A stretch of 42,514 nt of DNA, from NCBI GenBank assembly GCA_946408595.1, contig CAMJSX010000007.1:1-42514 (forward strand). The letters are read 5' to 3'. A program made the position numbers and the translations under genes. Source of the stretch: an uncultured Candidatus Saccharibacteria bacterium. GTDB taxonomy: Bacteria; Patescibacteriota; Saccharimonadia; Saccharimonadales; Saccharimonadaceae. The notes beneath the pieces were generated by a model. The model was not told where the DNA came from and did no database searches. It saw only the letters and a program-made list of their open reading frames with translations. This document shows positions 4,287 to 14,237 of the stretch, piece after piece (the first letter of the stretch is position 1; each line of letters begins with the position of its first letter).

Positions 4287-4314
4287 TTGCAAAATTCCCA
4301 AAAAGTGATAAAAT
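4287..4314 (+). promoter_or_regulatory. Promoter of the bL25 gene
   Basis: TTGCAA (4287-4292), a 16-bp spacer and TGA-TAAAAT (hexamer 4309-4314), then a leader with AAAAGGA before ATG 4342. Confidence 0.6.
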
Positions 4315-4341
4315 AGTAGAAATTAGTAGAAAAGGATTAAA

Positions 4342-5034
4342 ATGGCTGAATATAAGTTGAGCCTAGAAAAGCGTGAGCTGACAGGCAAAAAATTAAAGGT
4401 TTTAAGAGCTAGTGGGTTAATTCCATCAGTTATTTATGGTGGCAAGGAACCGGTCCTAGCAGCTTCTGAATATGTCGCAACTGAAAAAGTTTTGGGACAA
4501 GCTGGTTATCACTCACCAGTCGATCTTGATGTCGCTGGTAAAAAACATCTTGCTATTGTGAAGGATGTCCAAATCGATCCAGTCTCCCGCAGGATTGTAA
4601 ACATTGAATTCCAAGCAATTTCTGCAAACGAAGTCGTCGAAGCTACCACCCCAATCGTAATTGTCAATTTCGAAGCATCCGAAGCTTCCAAGATTTATCA
4701 CTTCGCTTTGACTCAATCAATGGAAGAAATTGATGTGAAAGCCAAACCAGCCGATCTTCCAAAAGAACTCACCATTGATGCCACGAATTTGAAAGAAGTT
4801 GATGATAAATTAACGATTAAAGACATCATCCTTCCAAACGGCGTTGAATTCGCCGACAAGGAAATGGATGCCGAGCAAGTTGTCGCTTCGCTCTATGATC
4901 CAGCCGCTGAAGCTGCTGCTCGTGAAGCCGAAGCTGCCGCTGCTGCTGCCGAAGCACCAGTTGATGCCGCCGATGTACCATCTGATAATGGCTCTAAGCC
5001 AGAAGAAGAAGCACCAGAAAAATCAGCTGAATAA
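4342..5034 (+). CDS. rplY: Large ribosomal subunit protein bL25 (long CTC/TL5 form)
   Basis: This 230-residue protein binds 5S rRNA in the large subunit. The N-terminal L25 domain (about residues 1-90) opens with LEKRELTGKKLKVLRASGLIPSVIYG and includes KDVQIDPVSRRIVNIEF. A C-terminal TL5 beta-domain follows (about 95-185, with ADLPKELTIDATNLKEVDDKLTIKDI split across it). The tail is rich in Ala and Glu and probably disordered. AAAAGGA lies upstream of ATG 4342. The stop (5032-5034) directly abuts the stop of the convergent aldolase gene, so the likely terminator (5061-5090) sits inside that gene's coding sequence. Confidence 0.93.
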   Translation: MAEYKLSLEKRELTGKKLKVLRASGLIPSVIYGGKEPVLAASEYVATEKVLGQAGYHSPVDLDVAGKKHLAIVKDVQIDPVSRRIVNIEFQAISANEVVEATTPIVIVNFEASEASKIYHFALTQSMEEIDVKAKPADLPKELTIDATNLKEVDDKLTIKDIILPNGVEFADKEMDAEQVVASLYDPAAEAAAREAEAAAAAAEAPVDAADVPSDNGSKPEEEAPEKSAE

Positions 5035-9031: not shown

Positions 9032-9129
9032 GGAAAATAGTAGTTTAACAATTCACAAATTTACGGATGTGTGGAATGTTGTAAGGACTCTTTTTGCCAA
9101 CAAAAATAACTGATAGGAGGGTAAAAACC

Positions 9130-9675
9130 ATGGCAAAAGACGGATACAAGAAGCCGGTCGTTACGACGACCGATCCCGAACCGACCCCGGTGTGGACGAA
9201 AGATCAGCTGGATCAGCTCCTGAATGCGCTGGAAGAGCGCGTCCGCGAGCGCAAAGCCGAGGCTGAGAAAGCCAAAGGCGAGAAGCCCAAAGCCGATCCC
9301 AACAAGGAAAAGCCCAAAGCCGATCCCAGCAAAGGCGAGAAGCCCAAGGCCGAGAAGCCCAAAGCTGAAAAGCCCAAGGCTGAGTCCGACCCCAAGGGCA
9401 CTAAGCCCGCTGATCCTGATCCCAACAAACCGACGCCCAAGGCCGAGAAGCCGAAGACGGTCGTCACCACCTGCTGCTCCAGCGGCATCGCGAATGGGCC
9501 CGGCAAGGCCTACCGCTACTGGGACTATCAGTCCCGCTGCTGGTTGCTCACTCCCGATATCTGGCGGGCCAATCAGGCCTCCAACGGGGAGTGGGACCCC
9601 ATCTGGGTCATGTATAAGGATGGAGAGATCCATCACATCCTGACCAATGACGAACTTCGGAAATACTGCCCGTAA
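9130..9675 (+). CDS. Lys/Pro/Ala-repeat protein with a Trp-rich C-terminal domain, unknown function
   Basis: Not recognised. I start at ATG 9130 because GATAGGAGGG sits 7 nt upstream. The 181-residue product has three parts. Residues about 1-40 form a short head (PVWTKDQLDQLLNALEERV). Residues about 41-108 are repeats of KPKAE/KPKAD. Residues about 109-181 are an aromatic, probably folded domain with a Cys pair (VTTCCSSG), YRYWDYQSRCWLL and WDPIWVMYKDGEIHHIL. No signal peptide or membrane helix is visible. Codon use (GCC, CCC, GAG, AAG) is much more GC-rich than in neighbouring genes. With a consensus promoter and strong ribosome site it is probably highly expressed, and its composition suggests transfer or an unusual expression class. 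Confidence 0.75.
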   Translation: MAKDGYKKPVVTTTDPEPTPVWTKDQLDQLLNALEERVRERKAEAEKAKGEKPKADPNKEKPKADPSKGEKPKAEKPKAEKPKAESDPKGTKPADPDPNKPTPKAEKPKTVVTTCCSSGIANGPGKAYRYWDYQSRCWLLTPDIWRANQASNGEWDPIWVMYKDGEIHHILTNDELRKYCP

Positions 9676-9705
9676 TTCCGGAGAAACTACTGAACCTTAA
9701 CGAAA

Positions 9706-9729
9706 AACCTGGCGAAAGCCGGGTTTTTT
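9706..9729 (+). terminator. Intrinsic terminator after the Lys/Pro-rich protein gene
   Basis: AACCTGGC-GAAA-GCCGGGTT forms an 8-bp stem (one G-U) with a GNRA loop, followed by a run of T. Confidence 0.9.
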
Positions 9730-9769
9730 CATGTAAAATAGACATAAGCGCAAAATAATGATAAAACTC

Positions 9770-9798
9770 TTGACAAATAAGCGGAAGTGTGATACAAT
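9770..9798 (+). promoter_or_regulatory. Consensus promoter of the 9970 membrane protein gene
   Basis: TTGACA (9770-9775), a 17-bp spacer and TACAAT (9793-9798). Predicted start point about 9805, giving a leader of about 165 nt. Confidence 0.85.
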
Positions 9799-9804
9799 GT
9801 AAGT

Positions 9805-9969
9805 AGTCTGAGTTTTCCATGTGTGTTAAACAAGAAGACCATTAACAACCGAATCATCCTAGGTTTCAAGACCTAGTGTTTATATATCTACTAACATCCT
9901 ACACACACCCCCACACTGGAGGCGTGTGAGCCTCCAAACAAAAAAAATACTTGAAAGGAGGCAACGGAT
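9805..9969 (+). promoter_or_regulatory. Structured 5' leader with a candidate ribosome-site switch
   Basis: Three elements are visible. (1) Hairpin CTAGGT-TTCAAG-ACCTAG at 9859-9876. (2) TGGAGGC-GTGTGA-GCCTCCA at 9917-9936, a 7-bp hairpin. (3) The ribosome-binding GGAGGC at 9957-9962, which is identical to the left arm of hairpin 2 and so can also pair with GCCTCC (9930-9935). CACAC (9912-9916) can alternatively pair with GTGTG (9924-9928), breaking hairpin 2. The leader could therefore adopt ribosome-site-free and ribosome-site-sequestered forms. No known riboswitch class is recognised. Confidence 0.5.
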
Positions 9970-11856
9970 ATGTTGCTGGCTATTATCCTCTTTGCAATGG
10001 TTACGTTCTTAATCGTAACCGAGGAGCGGATGTTCTGCAACGCTCAGGTCTCCGATGAGGGGACCACCGGTGTCCCGCTTAAAGAGCGGGCTAAGAACTT
10101 CTTCAATGACGATGGATCATGGGGCAAAGCACTGATTGTCGGTGCAGTTGTCGCCGTGATTAATTACGTCACGCCGAGACTCGGTCAGCAGTTCGCCGGA
10201 GTATCGATCCTCTTTATGTTGATCATGCTTGGACTTACTGTCTGTCTGATGCTTTGGTTCCACAAGGGAGGTAGCACTATTATGGAGGTCATTGTAATGA
10301 TCCTCATCGCATTGCTATTCTTCTGGGTAACCAAGAGTACTGCTGCGATGGCAACTTCTGTCATCAAAGACAAGACACTGCGTGCAATAGTGATGAAACT
10401 ACCGAACATTGCATTCTGCATTGCTTCTGGCTTCTTCATTGTGGACGCTCTGTTCTACAACTACGAAAAAAACAAGAAGTCGACTCTTCGCATTATTGCG
10501 TGGATTGTGATGATCTTGGTAACATTATCATGCATCATCTCACTTTCTTCCTGTTTTTTTAAGGATGCCCTCGGTTTGAATCAAACGACTGGGACTTCTC
10601 AGTCTAGCGCTTCTACCGAGGTGAAGAAATGGTGGGACAGCCTCTTTGTTGGAAACTGTGCCCCCAGAGGACCGGAATCGGCTGTGGCCGAAACGACACC
10701 TTACAAGGTGCCGGTGACGCCTCAGTCGCAATCTGCGTCTGGTTCGTCCGGTTCGTCTACCACTTCCACGCCGTCTACCAAACTTAGCTGGTATGGGTTT
10801 TACAACCTTGCCCTGCTAAAGGATGACGACAAGTCTAACGACTACAACTTTGGTTGGGATCCAACCAATGAGAAGTGGGAGGCGAAAGATTACGATGCCG
10901 AGTTTCGGAATCGTATCAAAGTCGACCCTGCGCTTGGCGCAGCCGATATGGCTTGGCTAGACGCAAACGTTGGCACCCGCTACATCGGAGTCTTCTATGA
11001 TGAAGTCTCTGGCAAATGGGATGCCGCAATCAACCTCGCTAAAGAGAGGTTCATGGCGGAAGACCCCACCAAACTCTACTATAAGACTTTGGATGGGTTC
11101 TTTGCCTTCTTGGATACGGCTGTGAAAGTCGAAGTCAAGAAGGGTGCCGATATCGAGGACCAGATGTATATGAATCCATATACTGTATCTGGTATCCCGG
11201 ACGTCATTGTCCTCAAAACACCTGACCATGAGGGTCTGTTCTTGGTTTATACTTTTAAAATCAAGGATCGCCTAGTGGAGGTGGCATACAGAATAGAATG
11301 CGGGTTCCAGCCTTGCAACGTCGAAAAGGTGATGGATATCCATCCTGAGCCTGAGCCGACGCCCAAGCCGACCCCCAAGCCGACAAAGACGCCCAAGCCG
11401 ACCGATGAGCCGACACCGACGCCCAAGCCGACCGATGAGCCGACACCGACGCCGACTCCTAAGCCGACACCGACGCCCAAGCCGACGCCGCAACCGACCA
11501 AGGATCCCACTCAAGGGACATCTCCCGATCCTGGGGACGATCCTGGTCCTGGTGAACCGACCTCTGGTGAGGTTGGAGGCACTCAGTCTACCGCAGAGGA
11601 ACCTGGCAGTTCTGATACCATGACTTACGATGAATATCGTGAGGAGATGGATGAACTCGAGGGCGAGACTGGTGGAGAACCTAGTTCTCCGACCACTACA
11701 ACTCCTCCGGGAGCCACGGTCGACGATCAGTCGGGCGATGACATTGATACTCCGACTCCGACTCAGGAGCCGGTCCACATAATTCTCCCCAGTGGAGAAA
11801 CAGAACCTATTTCTTCGGATCCTCCTGCGGGCGAGTGGGGTGGCCCTCCGGACTAA
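9970..11856 (+). CDS. Multi-pass membrane protein with an extracytoplasmic domain and Pro/Thr-rich tail, unknown function
   Basis: A 628-residue protein of no recognised family. Hydrophobic segments lie near residues 2-17, 53-67, 78-96, 104-121, 145-163 and 174-192. A Ser/Thr linker (about 205-265) leads to a globular domain of about 190 residues ([18 protein letters not shown] onward, with [13 protein letters not shown] and two Cys in CGFQPCN). From about residue 457 the protein is low in complexity ([11 protein letters not shown]), including an exact 30-bp tandem duplication at 11391-11450, and it ends acidic and Gly/Pro-rich. GGAGGC lies 7 nt before ATG 9970. Composition resembles the gene at 9130 more than the rest of the window. 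The domain order suggests a membrane-anchored stalk presenting a domain outside the cell; this is inference. Confidence 0.75.
11391..11450 (+). repeat. Exact 30-bp tandem duplication in the Pro/Thr stalk
   Basis: Bases 11391-11420 (beginning GCCCAAGCCGACCGATGAGC) are repeated identically at 11421-11450. Each copy encodes ten residues of the [10 protein letters not shown] type. Because the copies are identical, unequal recombination or slippage could change the stalk length. Confidence 0.9.
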
Positions 11857-11955
11857 GGTACGAAGAAAGGTATATAAACAGGTGCATTTGCACCAAACTA
11901 GTGGAGCTGGGAGCTCCAAGTACCTTAAATGGCCCGGCAACTTCGTGTTGCCGGG
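11855..11955 (+). ncRNA. Multi-helix structured RNA element after the 9970 gene
   Basis: AAGGTAC (11855-11861) pairs with GTACCTT (11920-11926) and encloses two hairpins: GGTGC-ATTT-GCACC (11881-11894) and TGGAGCT-GGG-AGCTCCA (11902-11918). A second domain, CCCGGCAAC-TTCGT-GTTGCCGGG (11933-11955, 9 bp), follows. The last two bases of the stop codon are part of the closing helix. No U-tract follows, so it is not a canonical terminator. It may protect the upstream mRNA end, serve as a processing site, or act as leader of the gene at 12075. Folding is by eye. Confidence 0.5.
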
Positions 11956-12074
11956 TCTAATCCAAGTTTGAAATTTAGGACGATTCGGTTGCAGACGAAT
12001 ATTAACAATTCGGCTAGCAAACAAAACAGTTTATTTTAATTTAATTAATTCATTTTTCATTAAAGGAGAATAAT
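11956..12074. other. AT-rich spacer before the DUF11 gene
   Basis: A weak hairpin ATTCG/CGAAT (11983-12000), then an AT-rich stretch leading to AAAGGAGAA before ATG 12075. I see no clear promoter in it. Confidence 0.4.
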
Positions 12075-13289
12075 ATGAATAAAGTTTATAAGACTATTTT
12101 AAGCGTAGCGGCCGCTGCAATCGTTGGTGGTGCTACTTTAGTCCCAGCTAACGTGTTAGCTTGGGGCGACTCTGCTGGTGGTCGTCAAGTTTACACCATT
12201 GAGCAGATTAATGAAGGCGCTCTTGGTGACAAGATTACCTTTAACTCAATTACTAACGGTAAAATTGGTGACGAACGTAATTTCGTCGGTGCCAAGATTT
12301 CAGGCACAACTAGTGTAAAAGATAATGAAATCAGCGTAGAAGATGGTAGGGCTTACACCATCCGTCTTTACGTTCACAACAACAGCCCATTTGGGGTTGA
12401 CAAAACTGCAGAAGATGTAACTGTTAGCTTTGCTCTTCCTACCACTGTTGGCAAAACCCACACTGTAGTTGGTTATATCAACTCTTCTAATGCAACGCCA
12501 GAACGTTACTGGGATGAGGTGAAACTTGTGTCCGATGACGATTTCTATATTGAATTTGTCGATGGTTCTGCAAGATATACCAACACTAAACTTGGTACCG
12601 TGCCTCTTTCTAACGAGGTGATCACTTCTGGTGCTAAGATTGGTTACTCAGGTTTGAATGGCAAGATTCCTGGTTGTTTCGCCTATGATGGTGAAGTAAC
12701 TATCGAAGTTATTGTCCACAAAGCTTCTTCTTCAAAACTTTCCAAGACTGTACGTATCAAAGGTACTAAGGAATGGAAAGAATCTGTAGATGCCAAGATC
12801 GGTGACGAAGTTGAGTACCAAATTGAGTACAAGAATTTAACTTCTGAAACCGTGAATAACGTCATGATTCGTGACATTTTGCCAAAGAACATGGAATACG
12901 TTAAGGATTCCACTTACCTTTACAATGCTAACCACCAAAGTGGTGTACAAGTTGTAGAAAATACTTTAACTACAACTGGTATCAACATTGGTAGCTATGC
13001 TACTAAGGGTAATGCCTACATTCGTTTCACCGCAAAGGTAGTTAATAATACTCTCGCTTGTGGTGACAACCAATTGGTCAACTGGGCAAATGTAACGGTG
13101 AACTCTGAAGTAACTGGTAAAGATGATGCTTCTGTAATGGTGAATAGAGTTTGTGAAACTCCTGAACCAGAACCAGAACCAGAACCAGATTTACCACCAA
13201 CTGGTGCAACCGATATTGTTGCCGGTGCCCTTGGTGCAGGTTCAATCGTGACCATGCTTGGTTACGCCATTGCTAGCCGTAAAAAATAA
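12075..13289 (+). CDS. DUF11-type cell-surface protein with LPPTG sorting end
   Basis: A 404-residue exported protein. The signal peptide ends near residue 29 (VPANVLA-WGDS). The mature N-terminus includes the segment ITFNSITNGKIGDERNFV, a feature I associate with Saccharibacteria surface proteins. An HNNSPFGV-containing beta domain follows. A DUF11-like domain (about residues 235-355) contains EYQIEYKNLT, VMIRDILPKNMEYV and NWANVTVNSEV. A PEPEPEPEP spacer leads to LPPTG (373-377), a hydrophobic helix and SRKK. This is a sortase-type sorting signal, so wall or membrane anchoring outside the cell is expected. Codon use is strongly biased (GGT, GCT, ACT, AAG), as in abundant proteins. AAAGGAGAA precedes ATG 12075, and a terminator follows. 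Confidence 0.85.
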   Translation: MNKVYKTILSVAAAAIVGGATLVPANVLAWGDSAGGRQVYTIEQINEGALGDKITFNSITNGKIGDERNFVGAKISGTTSVKDNEISVEDGRAYTIRLYVHNNSPFGVDKTAEDVTVSFALPTTVGKTHTVVGYINSSNATPERYWDEVKLVSDDDFYIEFVDGSARYTNTKLGTVPLSNEVITSGAKIGYSGLNGKIPGCFAYDGEVTIEVIVHKASSSKLSKTVRIKGTKEWKESVDAKIGDEVEYQIEYKNLTSETVNNVMIRDILPKNMEYVKDSTYLYNANHQSGVQVVENTLTTTGINIGSYATKGNAYIRFTAKVVNNTLACGDNQLVNWANVTVNSEVTGKDDASVMVNRVCETPEPEPEPEPDLPPTGATDIVAGALGAGSIVTMLGYAIASRKK

Positions 13290-13344
13290 TATTGGCCGCT
13301 TCGCGTCTGGTAAATAACTTGACGCATCGGGTGGTTTAAAAAAA

Positions 13345-13376
13345 CGAGCTGAGCTTTAAAACTTAGCTCGTTTTTT
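13345..13376. terminator. Intrinsic terminator after the DUF11 gene (possibly bidirectional)
   Basis: CGAGCTGAG (13345-13353) pairs with CTTAGCTCG (13362-13370). It is followed by TTTTTT and preceded by AAAA. Confidence 0.85.
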
Positions 13377-13398
13377 GTTGGTTTTAAAATGCTTATGG

Positions 13399-13404
13399 TA
13401 TAAT
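13399..13404 (+). promoter_or_regulatory. Extended -10 promoter of the 13413 gene
   Basis: TGG-TATAAT (13399-13404), then 8 nt to ATG 13413, with no Shine-Dalgarno. Near-leaderless. Confidence 0.6.
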
Positions 13405-13412
13405 CAATATGT

Positions 13413-14237
13413 ATGGATCAGACACAAAACGATTCTTTTGGTAGCTTTTCAAATAGTCAGGGTGGCTACACAGGCCAACCTGGCGTGTATTCTCCCGCAC
13501 CGATAATGCTGAATAATAGCGAGGAGAAGAAATCGAAGAAGTGGGTGTGGATTTTGGTGGTGTTACTGGTAGTTGGTTTAATTATAGCGGCAGTAACAAT
13601 ATTTATGATGTCCAACGAAAAAAAGCAGAAAAAAGCCGCTGCAGAAAAAGCTTTCTACGAAGTAGCTAATTATGTGATGGGCGGCGAGGATGAAGATGAT
13701 GATTCTGGTGATTTAGCCACAAGATATGATTCGTTAGTTGAGTCGTATACCGGCAATACGGATTATATATATGCCATAAGAATTAGACAAAAAGATTTTG
13801 GTACTATTAATGATTATTATGTGAAGCTAAACAATAAAAAGCAGGCATTATTAACAGCCGCCAAAGAAGCCGTCCAAGAAGAGACGCTGAATAATTATAT
13901 AGAATCATTAAGAGTACTAGAAAACGCCATAAACTATTATACGGTTAGGGATGGTTTGGTCAATGCTTATAAGACCGGTGGGGAATCTAATGCTCAAAAA
14001 TACCTCCGAAAGAATATCGAATGTGATGATTTGAATTGGGAACTAGCAGTGCAATGTAGTAGTGAAATGTATTATTATAAAGCACTTCTTAAGGACCATA
14101 TTAATGGCGATAACCCGAATGATAAAACATACCAACTCCTACAGGATAATATACTGAATAAAGAAAACCTAGTATACTTAAATCTAAGTGTTAGGGAAGT
14201 ACAAGATAAGCTTCTAAAGGAGCTAAACGATGAATAA
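13413..14237 (+). CDS. Single-pass membrane protein with an extracytoplasmic helical domain, partner of the VirB6-like protein
   Basis: A 274-residue protein, family not recognised. It has a Gln/Ser/Gly-rich cytoplasmic head (about 1-42), one membrane helix (about 43-66, WVWILVVLLVVGLIIAAVTI), an acidic stretch (GGEDEDDDSGD), and a helical domain of about 170 residues with two Cys (IECDD, VQCSS). No signal peptide cleavage is expected. The stop overlaps the start of the VirB6-like gene by 8 nt, so the two are translated from one mRNA and probably act together, possibly as parts of a type IV secretion-like apparatus. That role is inferred from position only. Confidence 0.7.
   Translation: MDQTQNDSFGSFSNSQGGYTGQPGVYSPAPIMLNNSEEKKSKKWVWILVVLLVVGLIIAAVTIFMMSNEKKQKKAAAEKAFYEVANYVMGGEDEDDDSGDLATRYDSLVESYTGNTDYIYAIRIRQKDFGTINDYYVKLNNKKQALLTAAKEAVQEETLNNYIESLRVLENAINYYTVRDGLVNAYKTGGESNAQKYLRKNIECDDLNWELAVQCSSEMYYYKALLKDHINGDNPNDKTYQLLQDNILNKENLVYLNLSVREVQDKLLKELNDE

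Follow-up and report, generated by a model that had tools for sequence, protein, structure and literature searches.

The locus described here raises the question of what a leader of some 165 nt does ahead of a bacterial gene, and whether it acts only on the neighbouring ribosome site or as part of a structure that takes in the far side of the gene as well. The window (the whole 42,514-nt stretch of DNA that was analysed) is contig C7 of a 0.74-Mb Saccharibacteria genome. The leader lies on its + strand behind a promoter at 9770-9798 (TTGACA 9770-9775, 17 nt, then TACAAT 9793-9798, with an extended -10 TG) that scores 11/12, is the sole + strand promoter-like site found by a scan of 9650-13450, and is kept 5′ of nearly all homologous leaders read. 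The promoter position puts the start of transcription near 9805, bearing out the initial annotation, which had described a leader of about 165 nt behind a consensus promoter. Gene A (9970-11856, +), an ORF of 628 aa beginning at ATG 9970, encodes a protein with hydrophobic segments in its N-terminal half and a Pro/Thr-rich C-terminal part, for which family searches gave no confident Pfam family; matches to it occur in 111 of the 174 genomes of the genus, and certain of the weaker matches are confined to the repetitive C-terminal part. Gene B (12075-13289, +) encodes a 404-aa surface protein with a DUF11 repeat, an LPPTG tail and a sub-threshold match to an isopeptide fimbrial domain, and its family occurs in 47 of the 61 genera of the taxonomic family. 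A terminator follows it at 13339-13376 (+; a 15-pair stem, then a T-rich tail), the only one on the + strand in 9650-13450 apart from hairpin P2 (below), which the scan also flagged. With a single + strand promoter and a terminator after gene B, A and B are probably carried on one transcript. Several other features of the sequences were noted: a 193-aa ORF with many KPKAE-like unit repeats just 5′ of the locus (9094-9675), followed by a terminator-like hairpin and T run near 9710-9730; and a further copy of gene B, more distant, elsewhere in this genome (L254, G000:C1:142211-143365), 5′ of which a quick look found no TTAACAA element.

A covariance model built from 26 leaders located the leader in 146 of 174 same-genus genomes at E 0.01, the weakest of these matches being possibly due to chance, and usually as a single copy per genome. 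A second, weaker match lies within about 2 kb of the first in G098:C20, G120:C17 and G088:C4, suggesting a tandem copy of the unit. With some 80 further loci added, both halves of the element, i.e. the leader and the A-B intercistronic region, were readable in 97 same-genus loci (92 distinct); the start of the following gene lies 3′ of the 3′ half in 93 of these 97, and in the sampled sequences printed this gene is gene B. Used as an exact pattern, the leader core was found in GTDB genomes named Saccharibacteria or Nanosyncoccus, with one exception (‘uncultured bacterium’); many isolate names among them point to the ruminant gut, and one is Candidatus Nanosyncoccus alces. Rfam gave no match for the element at gathering or permissive thresholds, nor any described RNA family for the switch at the ribosome site, and we found no description of the element in the open-access papers searched on Saccharibacteria noncoding RNA and untranslated regions. 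The leader alone folds somewhat better than shuffled sequences (z -2.5); its 5′ end is predicted to form a local hairpin, P1 (9806-9839, +; GTCT 9806-9809 with AGAC 9836-9839, and GTTT/AAAC inside), which is kept across leaders as judged by eye. A short upstream ORF with its ATG at 9819 was rejected, being broken in several relatives (also by eye).

The initial annotation had proposed a translational switch immediately before gene A, in which GCCTCC could pair with either of two GGAGGC copies, one of them the Shine-Dalgarno (SD) sequence. The motifs are exactly where it placed them, as is the ATG: within the local SD switch (9912-9962, +) we distinguish segment 1 (CACAC, 9912-9916), segment 2 (GGAGGC, 9918-9923, with GTGTG, 9924-9928), segment 3 (GCCTCC, 9930-9935) and segment 4 (GGAGGC, the SD, 9957-9962). 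The CACAC/GTGTG pairing that it invoked, 9912-9916 with 9924-9928, is likewise recovered, the minimum-energy fold combining 1:2 with 3:4 and so hiding the SD. Such a triplet near an SD is in itself weak evidence, because any C-rich leader offers pairings of this kind, and computed SD accessibility was not below that obtained with dinucleotide-shuffled sequence upstream of the SD (0.34 vs 0.34, p = 0.52). Support for the motif being real is given by the leaders of relatives, many of which keep its segments, with flanks that vary together. Among 72 distinct leaders with a GGAGG SD (identical leaders counted once), the order GGRGG...CCYCC...SD is kept in 44, and in these 44, by permutations that ignore relatedness, the flanks pair more often than with partners permuted for 1:2 (0.614 vs 0.485 ± 0.030), 2:3 (0.667 vs 0.533 ± 0.027) and 3:4 (0.682 vs 0.565 ± 0.032). 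Variants of 1:2 include CACAC/GTGTG, CATAC/GTATG, CCAAC/GTTGG, CTAAC/GTTAG and ACAAC/GTTGT, and those of 3:4 include TTAGCCTCC/GGAGGCTAA and TGGCCTCC/GGAGGCCA. The covariation that the annotation had suggested looking for is thus present in part: judged from these comparisons, about 60% of leaders are likely to have the alternative pairings, whereas some 40% lack segments 2 and 3, and the hiding of the SD does not exceed that of shuffled sequence.

What this local reading misses is a larger structure, in which the partner of the leader lies 2 kb further 3′. The arms of the outer long-range helix, H1, are 24 nt long and about 2 kb apart, CAACCGAATCATCCTAGGTTTCAA (9846-9869, +) in the leader and TTGAAATTTAGGACGATTCGGTTG (11968-11991, +) between gene A and gene B; their reverse-complement identity is 21/24, two of the three differences becoming G-U pairs as RNA, and no match like this is expected by chance in the window. 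When complementarity between flanks was scored for 30 ORFs of the window, gene A was an outlier at 49 (others: mean 23.9, highest 33). Across the 97 loci H1 is 93.2% paired, against 89.4 ± 0.26% with partners permuted (maximum of 1000 permutations, 90.3%) and 28-48% with one side slid, and its covariation was the same after thinning to 84 loci. The loci had been chosen by loose patterns at both arms, which kept core positions similar and left position 6 free on both sides; at position 6 the pairs are G-C in 56 loci, A-U in 35 and G-U in one, with no mismatch, and changes on both sides occur at other positions too. On the gene B tree position 6 has changed 11 times on each side, and in eight independent comparisons the two sides changed in the same direction in 7-8 and in opposite directions in none (median p 0.008); at positions 1, 4 and 20 independent changes were too few for significance. 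The leader is therefore complementary to the region 3′ of gene A, and compensatory changes uphold this complementarity, as in a long-range 5′-3′ paired mRNA; that the leader and the A-B intercistronic half pair is, on this comparative evidence, almost certain.

Cells with G-U in H1 number 159 and those with A-C 57, an asymmetry that favours RNA of the + strand; on this ground we discarded the idea of an antisense RNA made from the opposite strand. The sequence of H1 is conserved more than pairing requires, so a protein or another RNA may bind it as well. At the base of its 5′ side lies a UUAACAA motif (9842-9848, +) that is nearly invariant in leaders, and a conserved tail, GACGAATATTAACAATTCGGCTAGC (11994-12018, +), contains a second UUAACAA at 12002-12008; TTAACAA is present in the tail of the 3′ half in 93 of the 97 loci. 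The motif flanks the base of H1 on both sides in this genus and in most other-genus loci, and could be a binding site. A further hairpin, CCCGGCAAC-TTCGT-GTTGCCGGG (11933-11955, +), is predicted in the stretch that separates the H2 3′ arm from that of H1, with a stem that differs among relatives.

Inside H1 a second helix, H2, joins TGTTTATATATCT (9877-9889, +), just 3′ of hairpin P2, to AGGTATATAAACA (11868-11880, +), about 2 kb away and 12 nt past the gene A stop codon. Its mean helix score over the 97 loci is 25.6, compared with 18.5 ± 0.31 (maximum 19.3) when partners are permuted, and after thinning it is 25.5 against a permuted maximum of 20.0. The sequence of H2 has been mostly replaced among loci (AGUCUAUGCA, GAAACCGUGC, UUGUACGCAA and GAAUCAUACUGUU) with complementarity retained; the helix is about 9-18 bp long and starts 3-14 nt after the gene A stop in most loci, being weak or located elsewhere in a minority (e.g. 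L023, L027, L094, L122 and L125). Taken together, covariation of the two helices supports the view that H1, with H2 inside it, would clasp the whole 1.9-kb gene A and join its start and stop regions. At some loci, L017 and L018 among them, gene A seems to be split into one ORF of about 200 aa and another of about 410 aa, and the H1/H2 loop contains the two of them. The local hairpin P2 (CTAGGT-TTCAAG-ACCTAG, 9859-9876, +) shares a strand with H1; since it also covaries (pairing score 20.5 vs 16.1 ± 0.23 with partners permuted), P2 and part of H1 are to be regarded as alternatives. The scan had flagged P2 in the window as a transcription terminator, a role that was rejected, the U-rich tail being absent in most relatives. 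Joint folding of the two halves yielded a mean gain of 26.1 kcal/mol for native pairs, about 16.7 with the 3′ half of another species and 6.0 with a shuffled 3′ half. Computed SD accessibility was 0.34 without and 0.36 with the 3′ half and is thus unchanged by it, so that folding energy predicts no coupling of H1 and H2 to the SD switch.

Outside the genus a sequence model (R1) found no leader at E 1e-4 (one of 61 genera positive), from which the element appeared to be restricted to the genus. This restriction was rejected when the same layout was found elsewhere by following gene B, R1 therefore measuring the sequence rather than the device. In 10 of 20 sampled other-genus loci, representing ten genera, an arm, a gene or genes, a second arm with a UUAACAA-type motif, and gene B follow one another, with a promoter in nearly all and UUAACAA before the 5′ arm in most; the other 10 loci lack this layout, contig ends or another gene B copy accounting for some of them only. 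The arms pair across 16-30 nt. They are similar in five of the ten genera (ACAAAUCAGAUCAUUA and variants), and in the other half clearly different yet still pairing, as with UGUGUCAAAUCAUGCUAUUUCAUAUA in g48 and UUAAAAAUUAGGUCAAUUGAGUUAUUGAAC in g10. Mean H1 scores are 45.9 for native and 23.8 for swapped halves, a difference that is partly selection, the loci having been recognised by complementarity; for H2, which was unselected, they are 29.5 and 21.7, the native value being greater than in all 20,000 permutations. One locus, L237, whose H1 is weak (it scores 30, less than the best shuffled value), was kept for context. In g10 (L246, about 4314-4345) the inner helix involves GGAGGAUUGAAACGA, the gene A SD, and UUGUUUCAAUCCUCC, about 9 nt past the gene A stop, with complementarity extending over 15 nt (GGAGGATTGAAACGA / TTGTTTCAATCCTCC); it is predicted from this complementarity to mask the gene A SD directly from the 3′ side, as in icaR.

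These observations bear differently on the explanations that may be offered. If the local switch alone governed gene A, with 2:3 competing against 3:4 helped by 1:2 in response to a ligand, a protein or temperature, the covarying flanks of all three helices in the 44 leaders with the segments, and an SD hidden in the window's minimum-energy fold, would be readily understood; we nevertheless consider this unlikely, since 28 of the 72 distinct leaders are without segments 2 and 3, computed SD accessibility equals that of the shuffled control, and H1 and H2 would be left unexplained although they are present in nearly all loci. We would give a modest chance to H1 being a processing stem at which RNase III severs the A message from the B message, with no part in translation of A. 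The near-perfect 24-nt duplex around the cistron in 97 loci is of the kind that such a stem calls for, the genome encodes RNase III, and the comparable pairing in icaR is an RNase III substrate (PMC3868564), but neither the position of H2 at the stop codon nor the masking of the SD by the g10 inner helix is explained in this way.

Complementarity alone fits pairing in trans as well as in cis, and the 3′ half has a conserved tail, as might be expected were the intercistronic region a separate small RNA, or were the gene B leader to act on gene A leaders belonging to other molecules. Both versions appear improbable, given that the A-B interval of the window is free of + strand promoter-like sites, that the helices are nested in the order of a single molecule, and that their adjacency is constant in the loci read; pairing in cis, within one molecule, would be the simplest reading of this constant adjacency. 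Arms lying in inverted arrangement about 2.1 kb apart could also be DNA elements, either recombination sites that flip gene A or the ends of a mobile element. Against this, gene A and its promoter always point the same way between the arms at the loci examined, the leader is usually single in a genome and beside gene B, the differences between arms fit G-U pairing (159 G-U against 57 A-C), and the arms of H2 are replaced among species with complementarity kept; no inverted or empty sites were seen among relatives, and we regard DNA inverted repeats as extremely improbable.

The best explanation, to which we would assign a probability of roughly 55%, is that the paired halves serve the A-B message as a closing device that acts in cis. 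During transcription of gene A the leader would form local hairpins only (P1 and P2, together with the SD switch); after synthesis of the 3′ half, H2 and H1 would form, H1 displacing P2, and the leader would close. Closing would signal to the leader that the whole cistron has been made and that its stop codon is clear of terminating ribosomes, the latter because in most genomes H2 starts 3-14 nt past the stop, where a ribosome would probably melt it; gene A initiation would thereby be adjusted alongside the SD switch. A second effect would be an extended duplex in the A-B interval, at which RNase III could cut and thereby release a gene B message with a short leader of its own. This order of events is offered tentatively and is doubtful in its details. 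The predicted inner helix over the gene A SD in g10 favours repression of A as the outcome, and there is perhaps an even chance that closing lowers expression of gene A, separates A from B, or does both. We consider it most likely that the structure closes the finished A cistron, limits translation of A and provides a point of cleavage between the two genes.

Few cases are known in which a bacterial 5′ leader pairs with the far side of the gene it precedes, and the comparative evidence here concerns a span of about 2 kb and is drawn from some 90 genomes of a single genus and from ten further genera, in a lineage (Patescibacteria/CPR) in which post-transcriptional regulation has been little studied. 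The clasp would govern an operon that encodes a conserved surface protein of host-dependent bacteria, and may thus bear on how such cells manage their surface with few regulators. The structures presented here also make it testable whether a bacterial leader can sense the full transcription and translation of its gene.

Precursors of ribosomal RNA contain RNase III processing stems formed by complementary flanks around 1.5-3 kb of RNA; the clasp described here differs in enclosing a protein-coding gene and in having a helix at the stop codon, and cleavage of it is putative. In attenuators of the trp type, four alternating complementary segments lie beside the regulated step, and the present leader similarly has four such segments next to the SD. 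Unlike those attenuators, however, its switch would act on the SD rather than on a terminator, the short upstream ORF is unconserved, and the segments are missing in about 40% of relatives. The nearest known mechanisms are those of hok/aapA and icaR. In hok/aapA type I toxin mRNAs the 3′ side of the full-length message folds onto the 5′ leader, and local metastable hairpins form before this long-distance interaction (PMC6733600). The RNA described here likewise pairs its 3′ side with its 5′ leader, and its local hairpins are proposed to form first; whereas the hok/aapA transcripts are short, encode toxins and involve an antisense RNA as well as 3′-end trimming, the present helices span a gene of about 1.9 kb in an operon, with an intercistronic 3′ arm and no toxin or antisense RNA identified. 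In the icaR mRNA of Staphylococcus aureus, the 3′-UTR pairs with the SD and the duplex is an RNase III substrate (PMC3868564); here, too, the 3′ side of gene A pairs with the leader, in g10 apparently with the SD itself. The icaR interaction uses a short UCCCCUG motif at the transcript end, unlike the clasp, which has a second gene downstream and two nested helices, of 24 and about 13 nt, that covary in many species. Span, the two nested helices, operon setting and depth of conservation thus set the present case apart from both. It may be, with a likelihood that we place somewhat short of even, that this is an old Saccharibacteria RNA that clasps a whole cistron, tying its leader to the region directly past its stop codon, and thereby makes translation of A depend both on the cistron having been completed and on the B message being released, with no described counterpart of such span and conservation.
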